Below, piece by piece: positions 28,696-31,580 of a stretch of DNA of 45,799 nt. This stretch comes from Bacteroidota bacterium. Its GTDB lineage: Bacteria > Bacteroidota > Rhodothermia > Rhodothermales > Bin80. The notes under the pieces were generated by a model that saw nothing but the letters and a program-made list of their open reading frames with translations, did no database searches and had not been told where the DNA came from. Numbering within the stretch: the first letter of the stretch is position 1; each line of letters starts with the position of its first letter. A program made the position numbers and the translations under genes. The stretch covers positions 1 to 45,799 of the forward strand of contig JAPPGC010000057.1 of NCBI GenBank assembly GCA_028875125.1. The letters are read 5' to 3'.

Positions 28696-28703
28696 TTTAT
28701 TTT
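28696..28703 (+). repeat. Left target-site duplication TTTATTTT
   Basis: This 8-bp sequence directly precedes the left transposon end and is repeated exactly at 31531-31538 after the right end. Eight base pairs is the known duplication size for the IS1595 family. Confidence 0.95.
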
Positions 28704-28727
28704 GGGAATTATATCCCAAAGTTGAAA
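28704..28727 (+). repeat. Left terminal inverted repeat
   Basis: It begins GGGAATTATATC and matches the inverted right end at 22 of 24 positions; mismatches are at positions 13 and 14. A TTGAAA at 28722-28727 could serve as a transposase promoter -35 element, with TATAAG 19 bases later, but that spacing is poor. Confidence 0.93.
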
Positions 28728-28785
28728 TCATTTCGATTTGCCTACGTATAAGATAGTAGATAAAGCAAATCAGAGGTTGTATATT

Positions 28786-29730
28786 ATGGCAAGCTCAGGA
28801 CGCTCACACAGACAAGGAATCATGCTCTTAGAGCTCGCTGAAAAGTTGCCCGATGAAGCATCTGCATGGAGTTGGTTTGAGAAAGTACATTGGTCAGACG
28901 GTAACTTGTGCTGCCTGCGGTGCGGTAGCGATAACGTGTACAGGTGCAAGCACAAGACCATGCCTTTCCGTTGCCGGGACTGCAAGAAGTATTTCAGTGT
29001 CAAGACTGGAACAGCTATGGAATCCTCTAAGTTGCCATTGAAGAAATGGGTATGGGCTATCTACTTGGAGAACACAAGCCTTAAAGGTGTATCTTCTATG
29101 AAGTTGCACCGCGATATTGGTGTGACTCAAAAGCACGCGTGGCACATGCTTCATAGAATCCGCGAGGGCTTGCTGCCGGAAATGATCAATGCGTTTGAGG
29201 GGCCAGTAGAGGTAGACGAATCCTATATAGGAGGCAGGGAAGTAAATAAGCACGAGGACAAGAAACTCAACGCTGGACGCGGTACGGTAGGCAAGGCGGC
29301 TGTATTGGGCGTGAAAGACCGCAAGACGAATCAGATCACCGCTAAGGTCATTGAGGATACGACCAAGCCAACTGTACAGGAGTTCGTGAATGACAACCGC
29401 TCCGAGGATGCTTCGGTGTTCACCGATGAGCATTTGAGTTACAAGGGCTTGAAGAATCACACGTCAGTTAATCACAGCAGAAAGGAATGGGCTGTTAGCA
29501 GTGCGTTGGGCGAATACGCTCACACGAACGGCATAGAATCCTTTTGGGCTGTCTTGAAGCGTGCCTATCACGGCACATATCACCACCTAAGCAAGAAGCA
29601 CCTTAACCGCTACGTCACGCAGTTTGCAGGGAAGCACAATTTGAGGAGCATGGATACCATTGACCAGATGGCCTCGGTCGTCAAAGGCATGGTAGGTAAA
29701 CGGTTGAGGTACAAAGACCTGATCTCGTAA
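28786..29730 (+). CDS. IS1595-family DDE transposase
   Basis: Cuts and rejoins the element's ends. An N-terminal zinc-ribbon (CLRCG...CRDCKKYF, about residues 43-68) leads to an ISXO2-like DDE domain. The expected catalytic residues sit in VEVDESYIGGRE, SVFTDEHLSYKG and HTNGIESFWAVLKRAYHGTYHH. The frame is intact. I place the start at the ATG at 28786 (314 aa); an upstream in-frame TTG at 28738 would give 330 aa. Its TAA stop touches the ATG of the methyltransferase. Confidence 0.95.
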   Translation: MASSGRSHRQGIMLLELAEKLPDEASAWSWFEKVHWSDGNLCCLRCGSDNVYRCKHKTMPFRCRDCKKYFSVKTGTAMESSKLPLKKWVWAIYLENTSLKGVSSMKLHRDIGVTQKHAWHMLHRIREGLLPEMINAFEGPVEVDESYIGGREVNKHEDKKLNAGRGTVGKAAVLGVKDRKTNQITAKVIEDTTKPTVQEFVNDNRSEDASVFTDEHLSYKGLKNHTSVNHSRKEWAVSSALGEYAHTNGIESFWAVLKRAYHGTYHHLSKKHLNRYVTQFAGKHNLRSMDTIDQMASVVKGMVGKRLRYKDLIS

Positions 29731-30663
29731 ATGGGACCGTTGCTTCACAAGAAAAGGCGAGGGCAATACTACACGGAGTCAAATCCATTCAGACACTCAG
29801 CATTTGTGAAATGGGCAAAAGATTCTGGTATGCAAGCCTGCACGGTTCTTGAACCTTTTGCCGGAAGTAACAGCATTATCAAGCACTTACGTGTAATGGA
29901 CTTGTGCAGGTCGTTCAGGTCATACGATATTGAGCCAGCAAGCAAGGACGTAGAATACAGAGATACATTGGCAAACTTCCCGCAAGGCTTTGAGGTGTGC
30001 GTTACAAATCCGCCTTGGCTTGCACGGAATATCGCTACGTTCAAGGGGCTGGAATTTCCCGAAGGCGAATACGGGAACCTGTACCAGTATGCCCTCGAAA
30101 ATTGTCTTTCTAATTGCGATTGGGTAGCTGCACTTGTACCAGAATCGTTTATCAGAACGCAGACATTCAGGAAACGGTTAAGTTCTTTTGTATCTGTAAC
30201 TGAATGCTTATTTACCGACACAGGCCATCCCGTAGGGATGGCATTGTTTCAACCTACGAAAACAGAGAAAACACGTGTTTGGGTTGGTAAACAACTTGTA
30301 GGTTGTCTTGAAGAGTTAGAAAAGGACTATCCTATTCCCCGAAAGAACGGTGTCAAGGTGGTTTTCAACGCCCCAAACGGAAATGTGGGACTTTACGCAC
30401 TTGACAACACAGTTCAGCCGTCTATTCGCTTCTGCTCCCCGGACGAACTGTCCGATTATGCAGTTAAGCGCACAGGTCGCCATATTACTAAATTGTGGGT
30501 TGATGGCAAAATTGAGTTGGAGAAATGGAATGCTTTTCTTAATGAGTTCAGACACAAGACGCATGATGTCTTGATGACTTGTTACAAAGGCATTAGGAAA
30601 GACGGAAAGTATCGTAGACGGCTTGACTGGCAGCTCGCGCGGGGGATTATCCATAATGCATAA
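29731..30663 (+). CDS. N6-adenine DNA methyltransferase, gamma-class
   Basis: Predicted to transfer a methyl group from S-adenosylmethionine to adenine in a short DNA site. Motif X-like GQYYTESNPF (residues 11-20), motif I VLEPFAGSNS (39-48), the acidic YDIEP after it, and the catalytic motif IV N93-P-P-W96 appear in the order X-I-IV, the gamma class. The region from about 190 to 310 would hold target recognition. The length of 310 aa suits a stand-alone Type II enzyme. It begins with no gap after the transposase stop, and the next gene overlaps its end by 8 bases, as for a paired restriction enzyme. The target site cannot be predicted. Confidence 0.88.
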   Translation: MGPLLHKKRRGQYYTESNPFRHSAFVKWAKDSGMQACTVLEPFAGSNSIIKHLRVMDLCRSFRSYDIEPASKDVEYRDTLANFPQGFEVCVTNPPWLARNIATFKGLEFPEGEYGNLYQYALENCLSNCDWVAALVPESFIRTQTFRKRLSSFVSVTECLFTDTGHPVGMALFQPTKTEKTRVWVGKQLVGCLEELEKDYPIPRKNGVKVVFNAPNGNVGLYALDNTVQPSIRFCSPDELSDYAVKRTGRHITKLWVDGKIELEKWNAFLNEFRHKTHDVLMTCYKGIRKDGKYRRRLDWQLARGIIHNA

Positions 30664-31324
30664 TCCACCAGATTATGACGCCTTAGAGCAAGTAGCATGG
30701 CGAGAAAACGTTGATGCTGTTATTGACCGACTCAATGCCCGAGACGCCAATATCCTGAAAAAGATCAGCACATACATTTGGCGTTTTGGGTACTCGGAAT
30801 CAGAGGTCAGCAATCACATAAGAGAAGATCAAATGTTTGCGGCGTGGTTTGCCAAAGAACCGCGCAGAACTAAGTTCCATGAGAAAATTGCAGCCGAATG
30901 GCTACGACAAATTGAGCAAGAATCAGACTTGATCAAGGACTTTGACGAGTTGGCAACGAGAGGCAGAAAGGCATGGTATATCGCTTCTGATAGAGACTTA
31001 CGCCAAGGCCAAAGGCCCTCAGGCATTAAGTCTTTGGACTTCAAATGGAAAACAGGCAACTATACGATCTACGCTTCACACAAGTACACGAAAGAGGGAG
31101 GCGGGAATCAAGACAGCCAATTCAATGAAGTCTTGCAGTTGCTAATGCATTTTCAGAGGTCAAATGGTAAATATGACGTTGTTTTAGCAATCGTGGATGG
31201 CCCATACTTCACAGAAAAAAAGATGGAGGAACTGTACAGGTATGAGAGAACGAGACCACCGTACAGTAAAGCACTGCCAATCCAAGACGTACCGGACTTC
31301 TTAGCCAATCTACCAGACCAATGA
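30656..31324 (+). CDS. Probable Type II restriction endonuclease (novel-looking)
   Basis: No family is recognised with certainty. It is 222 aa from the ATG at 30656, overlapping the methyltransferase stop by 8 bases. The N-terminal half (1-115) is mainly helical. The region 121-183 looks like a PD-(D/E)XK nuclease core: D128 on a strand, then the strand TIYASHK with Lys143, then Gly-rich KEGGGNQDSQFNEV, a helix, and the strand YDVVLAIVDGPYF. The position expected to be acidic two residues before Lys143 is Ser141, which is unusual but not unknown. The pairing with a methyltransferase is the main support; a non-nuclease partner remains possible. Confidence 0.6.
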   Translation: MHNPPDYDALEQVAWRENVDAVIDRLNARDANILKKISTYIWRFGYSESEVSNHIREDQMFAAWFAKEPRRTKFHEKIAAEWLRQIEQESDLIKDFDELATRGRKAWYIASDRDLRQGQRPSGIKSLDFKWKTGNYTIYASHKYTKEGGGNQDSQFNEVLQLLMHFQRSNGKYDVVLAIVDGPYFTEKKMEELYRYERTRPPYSKALPIQDVPDFLANLPDQ

Positions 31325-31497
31325 CGAAGCAACGCTCCAACGGCCCCGACAAACCGAAAGACCGTTTAGACAGGATGATGGACGAACCCAGCGTAAATGA
31401 GCGTTACGGCGGAATGACGATGCGTGAAATGGTGAGGAAAGTGGTGCTGCGCAGGGACGATTCAGCGCAGGAGAAGAAGAAAATTAACCTGAAATGA
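31321..31497 (+). CDS. 58-residue basic protein of the transposon
   Basis: A small open frame starting as ATGA over the previous stop and ending with TGA at 31495-31497, three bases before the right inverted-repeat zone. The protein is rich in K, R, D and E, and Met-rich in the middle, with no Cys. No helix-turn-helix of the restriction-controller type is evident. The four-base overlap and continuous strand support real translation. It may regulate or assist the nuclease or methyltransferase, but nothing in the sequence shows how. Confidence 0.65.
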   Translation: MTKQRSNGPDKPKDRLDRMMDEPSVNERYGGMTMREMVRKVVLRRDDSAQEKKKINLK

Positions 31498-31506
31498 GCG
31501 GAAACC

Positions 31507-31530
31507 TTTCAACTTTTAGATATAATTCCC
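31507..31530 (-). repeat. Right terminal inverted repeat
   Basis: The reverse complement starts GGGAATTATATC and matches the left end at 22 of 24 positions. The outer end at 31530 directly abuts the second TTTATTTT. Confidence 0.93.
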
Positions 31531-31538
31531 TTTATTTT
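31531..31538 (+). repeat. Right target-site duplication TTTATTTT
   Basis: Exact copy of 28696-28703. Deleting one copy and the element rebuilds the uninterrupted intergenic sequence. Confidence 0.95.
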
Positions 31539-31540
31539 GG

Positions 31541-31580
31541 ACGCCGTGCAGTCAGTGACAGATTGCATGGCGTTTTCTTT
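31541..31580 (+). terminator. Intrinsic terminator beside the transposon
   Basis: ACGCCGTGCA (31541-31550) pairs with TGCATGGCGT (31564-31573) over ten positions, with a single G-T pair, and TTTTCTTTTC follows. It starts two bases beyond the right duplication. Without the transposon it would lie about 93 bp after the LVIVD-repeat gene stop, which was probably its original partner; it now also closes the transposon's passenger genes. Its end is only 24 bp before the transporter start. Confidence 0.85.

Follow-up and report, generated by a model that had tools for sequence, protein, structure and literature searches.

Can a single insertion sequence (IS) unit serve as the vehicle for a complete restriction-modification (R-M) system? 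R-M genes show a patchy distribution and are evidently mobile, but the vehicle that moves them is often obscure; the usual examples are IS-flanked composites and plasmids. The window analyzed here, a stretch of 45,799 nucleotides from a Bacteroidota bacterium, contains a locus that bears on this question. A first-pass annotation described the locus as a simple IS1595-family transposon with three passenger genes, which were proposed to form a Type II R-M system. Our analysis indicates that it is very probably a passenger-carrying IS1595 transposon ("tIS") with a predicted Type II R-M operon as cargo.

The transposon extends from 28704 to 31530. Its inverted ends are 24 nt long, match at 22 positions and start in the GGG/GGC manner: the left repeat, GGGAATTATATCCCAAAGTTGAAA, lies at 28704–28727 on the + strand, and the right repeat at 31507–31530 on the – strand. 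The GGGAATTATA start of the left repeat is also found in sister elements. Two identical copies of the 8-bp target site duplication TTTATTTT flank the element (28696–28703 and 31531–31538, without strand). The transposase gene (28786–29730, + strand) is intact and encodes a 314-aa protein with a zinc ribbon and an ISXO2-like DDE domain, which matches Pfam DDE_Tnp_IS1595 (PF12762, 2e-35) and NCBIfam IS1595 (NF033547, 8e-49), both above the cut-offs. The methyltransferase, nuclease and ORF4 genes follow on the same strand. The first base of the methyltransferase gene (29731) directly follows the transposase stop codon, with 0 bp in between; the nuclease gene overlaps the methyltransferase gene by 8 nt, and ORF4 overlaps the nuclease gene by 4 nt. 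The first-pass annotation was correct about the ends, the direct repeats, the transposase and the gene packing, and its view of the locus as a simple passenger-carrying transposon is supported, since 8-bp duplications and passengers are established for IS1595 elements (PMC5704250).

Uninterrupted versions of the insertion site were found in two genomes of the same genus. In one (G004, contig C104) the target occurs once, as TTTATCTT, within contiguous flanks that are 92–93% identical to those in the window; the other (G008, contig C13) has a similar single target copy, and its contiguous flanks are 87% identical. Sister elements have ends and duplications of the same kind. Because the flanks are contiguous around one 8-bp target in both congeners and the sister ends are alike, we regard the insertion as real and not a chance resemblance. 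Judged from its sequence, the window element is a complete IS1595-family transposon that inserted recently, and transposition itself is suggested by comparative evidence of insertion only. A terminator-like stem-loop with a T-rich tail (31539–31575) adjoins the right target duplication. This stem-loop is part of the host flank, which places the insertion at the base of what is probably a host terminator.

The gene immediately behind the transposase (29731–30663, + strand) encodes a 310-aa gamma-class DNA methyltransferase of the N6-adenine type with the motifs GQYYT, EPFAGSN and TNPPW. It matches PHROG 18657, a phage DNA methyltransferase family, at 5e-50, and Eco57I weakly. The SAM-binding and catalytic motifs EPFAGSN and NPPW are present and are conserved in alignment A2. 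From the motif patterns only, the methylated base would be adenine. A relative with 41% identity is encoded on a plasmid of Magnetospirillum sp. XM-1, with no recognizable nuclease beside the gene. Cyanophage methyltransferases are approximately 33% identical to the window protein. Their genes adjoin one for "restriction endonuclease II" in phages S-H38 and P-SSM4, and lie one gene away from it in S-RSM4 and ACG-2014e.

The next gene (30656–31324, + strand) encodes a 222-aa protein that we predict to be a Type II restriction endonuclease-like enzyme of the PD-(D/E)XK fold, based on its structural model, motifs and gene context. Its library matches are weak (Tsp45I, 0.006; PHROG "restriction endonuclease II", 0.0034). 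Comparison with characterized enzymes gave no significant sequence match, PDB sequence searches with single proteins and with profiles returned nothing significant, and tblastn of plasmids with the nuclease found no relatives. Scans of viral contigs with either the methyltransferase or the nuclease also found none. Relatives that are 34–41% identical occur in six Chloroflexota genomes (loci L006–L011), where each lies directly behind a beta-class N6_N4_Mtase gene unrelated to the window methyltransferase and, in most loci, overlaps its 3' end. No IS1595 gene was found near these Chloroflexota pairs. The pair is chromosomal and conserved in position: in each of the six genomes it lies upstream of an acetyl-CoA synthetase gene that is encoded on the other strand. 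Alignment of the window nuclease with its relatives revealed invariant D128, K143, GGxxQD and E158 positions, and the pattern K-x2-D...K...GGxxQD...E is common to the window protein and the cyanophage "restriction endonuclease II". The AlphaFold model (pLDDT 86.7) resembles C7BVG4, an S-RSM4 protein that at 230 aa has the length of the cyanophage enzyme at the S-RSM4 locus (TM 0.74, E 9e-7), as well as the viral protein M1HMH0 (TM 0.72, E 4e-12). Fold matches in the PDB are weak (best E 3e-3), and include PD-(D/E)XK nucleases, among them Can2 and the restriction enzyme BstEII.

For the nuclease, the R-M reading rests on context and structure. Two unrelated classes of methyltransferase partner this nuclease family across three lineages, as would be expected of a restriction enzyme. 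Relatives of each partner occur separately in R-M-like pairs, and the exact combination was seen once: among 196 related genomes this methyltransferase-nuclease pair was found nowhere else. Together, the paired relatives, motifs and fold match lend good support to the predicted Type II R-M system that the first-pass annotation had proposed. That annotation had also suggested looking for copies with the same cargo in related genomes, and none was found in the 196.

ORF4 (31321–31497, + strand) had been counted as a third passenger. It encodes a 58-aa right-end protein with the motif N-x-R/K-Y-x-G-M/L/I/F-T, and is 79% identical to the right-end ORF of the closest sister, L048, which otherwise carries unrelated cargo. 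ORF4 also occurs beside the right end in the cargo-less element L049 and in differently loaded elements, and a profile search found copies close to right-end sequence in many of the family's genomes. Because it is common to sister elements with differing cargo, ORF4 is a gene of the transposon and not cargo; the passenger assignment holds for the methyltransferase and the nuclease. Short ORF4-like proteins were found in 15 of 16 family genomes, many of them next to an IS1595 right end where no transposase was detected. In two elements, L083 (positions 2509–2685 of the element) and L084 (2428–2595), ORF4 is replaced by a different short basic protein with a GRPxKD motif, which suggests two alternative right-end genes. 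We also considered whether ORF4 together with a methyltransferase but no transposase represents a non-autonomous R-M transposon, and rejected this because no bounded elements surround the solo ORF4 matches; several of these adjoin right-end sequence close to the start of a contig or are accompanied by remnants of a transposase. In G006, contigs C80 (L154) and C30 (L155) each have a methyltransferase-Mrr fusion gene followed by ORF4-like sequence, and in L155 the remnant of a transposase C-terminus lies just upstream of the fusion. Both look like decayed R-M transposons.

We then compared the cargo of sister elements, using transposase relatives from the genus, family and order with automatically called element ends. 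Thirteen elements, the window element included, are bounded at both ends and carry R-M cargo. The target duplication matches at 7 or more of 8 positions in ten of the thirteen and at 6 of 8 in L087; L053 and L055 extend to the end of their contigs. The cargo is diverse. L050 and L060 carry methyltransferase-HNH fusions, L063 and L084 methyltransferase-Mrr fusions, and L053 and L087 an EcoRI-type methyltransferase with a GmrSD_N/HNH protein. L052 has HSDR_N, N6_Mtase and specificity domains in a split frame, L091 a single-chain Type IIG enzyme, L083 a methyltransferase with REase_II, and L089 and L136 a methyltransferase with a partner without an assigned family. The window's own genome holds a further such element, L055 (G000:C28:1-4714), with a 657-aa HSDR_N_2/N6_Mtase protein and a 498-aa specificity protein; it fills its contig, which begins and ends at the inverted repeats of the element. 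Library scores of the sister cargo (REase_II, 4e-86 and 7e-117; Type IIG, 9e-189; EcoRI methylase, 3e-125) and Pfam domains support its assignment to the R-M class. Other sisters have non-R-M cargo (L048, L061, L067 and L082) or none (L049, L054, L099 and L100), and IS1595 elements from farther afield in the phylum have other genes, such as those for PIN-domain or DUF4065-like proteins, the latter identified by eye. The first-pass annotation had held that its reading would be refuted if many relatives lacked the cargo as a unit. This is the case for the window's own genes, as L048, with a transposase 88% identical, carries others, but R-M cargo as a class is recurrent in the element family.

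The association was also apparent from the methyltransferase side. We collected 184 methyltransferase loci of two Pfam families from 16 genomes of the family and found 18 that lie downstream of an IS1595 transposase, on the same strand and no more than 2.5 kb away, compared with an expectation of 0.34. None lies upstream on the same strand, and one lies on the opposite strand. The Poisson probability of 5e-25 for 18 against 0.34 assumes random placement and should be read as "very unlikely" only. For at least one of these 18 loci (G009:C36) an ORF4-like match intervenes, so that the methyltransferase gene may fall outside the element. The window methyltransferase and the two EcoRI-type enzymes are described by other families and are therefore not among the 18. 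Other transposases provide a better test than the Poisson figure: among the loci listed, 3 of 217 controls (rve or DDE_Tnp_1) in the same genomes have such a neighbor versus 18 of 92 IS1595 loci (Fisher P 5e-8), and all three control cases are in G014, with 0 of 95 listed control loci outside that genome. Among the loci listed, this control rejects the idea that R-M genes simply accumulate near any transposase.

R-M cargo is scattered on the transposase tree, which has 36 rows, 18 of them with R-M genes. Its distribution takes 11 changes, at least 10 of which are forced by well-supported branches, and the cargo types need 12 changes among the 18 R-M rows. Transposases that are nearly identical can carry different systems: the HNH fusion of L060 stands beside the Mrr fusion of L063, and the window element beside L048. 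In the window, L050, L052, L053, L063 and L084, the first cargo gene has its start codon directly against the transposase stop or overlapping it (TAA|ATG, ATGA or TAATG), and the methyltransferases at these six junctions belong to different families. A short gap separates transposase and cargo in L055, L060, L083 and L087. In the 16 family genomes searched, IS1595 elements repeatedly carry unrelated R-M systems in one slot.

How would such an element work? From its sequence and the uninterrupted sites, the transposase would act on the 24-bp ends and insert the unit with an 8-bp duplication. The R-M genes may be transcribed from the transposase promoter, with the methyltransferase made before the nuclease, and the anatomy, in which each start codon falls at or within the preceding stop, suggests that the two genes share a transcript with the transposase gene and are coupled to it in translation. 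One short DNA motif would be protected by the methyltransferase, probably through methylation of adenine at N6, while the nuclease would cleave DNA in which that motif is unmodified and so defend the cell against foreign DNA. The pair might also penalize loss of the element, so that the R-M genes could pay for their carriage through defense, addiction or both.

The broadest form of this model is about as likely as not. In it, the IS1595 group of this bacterial family would be a shuttle devoted to compact R-M systems: unrelated modules, coupled in translation to the transposase, would be loaded time after time into the fixed slot between the transposase stop and the conserved right-end ORF, and transposition, immunity and maintenance would be joined in one unit. 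The elements could instead be ordinary transposons that take up nearby genes in genomes rich in R-M genes and defense islands, with no special role for the cargo. Sisters that are empty or carry non-R-M genes (L048, L061, L067 and L082) fit this explanation, as do the PIN-domain and DUF4065-like cargo of distant elements in the phylum and the more than 20 methyltransferase loci in some family genomes. Yet opportunistic uptake does not account readily for a strongly non-random position and strand (18 downstream versus 0 upstream), for a bias that other transposases do not show among the loci listed, or for unrelated methyltransferases that start exactly at the transposase stop codon, and we consider it unlikely. 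Less probable still is that the methyltransferase serves the transposon, in regulation or end protection, and that the nuclease-fold protein has another job. Orphan methyltransferases are common, and sequence comparison of the nuclease with tested restriction enzymes gave no significant match, but across three lineages its family partners methyltransferases of two unrelated classes, and recognized restriction endonuclease families occupy the same slot in sister elements.

Active addiction, in which the R-M pair retains the transposon by killing cells that lose it, is a tentative possibility that ranks above opportunistic uptake and below the shuttle model. Both genes are intact and tightly packed, the methyltransferase gene comes first, and stabilization of mobile elements by R-M systems is established in general (PMC4176335). 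Against this, a single-copy insertion is rarely lost cleanly, which makes the benefit less obvious than for plasmids, and the pair is absent from the other 195 relatives searched, which gives no hint that it has been maintained for long. We give almost no credence to the idea that the R-M genes moved alone and landed beside an IS, or that the locus is an assembly artefact. R-M genes can move alone or as IS-flanked composites (PMC3031569), and the host is known from draft contigs only, but the locus is a single unit with matched ends and an exact duplication, and a dozen sister elements share its architecture. An assembly artefact was rejected because the flanks are colinear in two congeners.

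The loaded IS1595 element can be set against several known systems. The tIS elements tISCpe8 and MTnSag1 have passengers, 25-bp ends and 8-bp duplications (PMC5704250). They share with the window element an IS1595 DDE transposase, inverted repeats of approximately 25 bp, the 8-bp duplication and a passenger inside one unit (PMC5704250), but they carry lincomycin resistance and oriT rather than an R-M system, and differ from the window element in its short right-end ORF and its passenger that begins at the transposase stop codon. Transposon-borne and IS-flanked R-M genes have been described as well (PMC4176335, PMC3031569). In the Rhizobium leguminosarum VF39SM composite and PaeR7I, R-M genes were likewise moved by IS machinery (PMC3031569); those cases involve an IS copy on each side or IS recombination, whereas in the window a single IS unit encloses the R-M genes, which sit between the transposase gene and the right end. 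The cyanophage pair (PHROG 18657 with PHROG 18366, "restriction endonuclease II") resembles the window pair in its methyltransferase, 33% identical over the full length, and in the fold and active-site motif of the partner, but it resides in a phage genome with the nuclease first and, in some phages, one gene in between. The Chloroflexota pairs share the nuclease and its overlap, and differ in their beta-class partner and lack of a nearby IS1595 gene. We found no description of R-M cargo inside IS1595 units in the literature searched, and methyltransferase passengers may be mentioned in the article that established the IS1595 family (Siguier et al. 2009) or in the 2014 IS review. The kind of passenger-bearing IS1595 element is already known; recurrent, junction-coupled loading with R-M systems is the new part. 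A single-unit IS that has taken up different R-M systems again and again at one position is a tangible vehicle for such genes, in a bacterial family that has received little study, and the transposon group is a source of new compact R-M systems. Two questions become testable: whether R-M cargo promotes the persistence of a transposon, and how cargo is exchanged so precisely behind the transposase stop codon.

A distant IS1595 element (L141) on plasmid p1318-1 of Roseomonas marmotae has an 8-bp duplication and carries a hypothetical protein together with a PIN-domain protein, a cargo that is possibly toxin-antitoxin-like.
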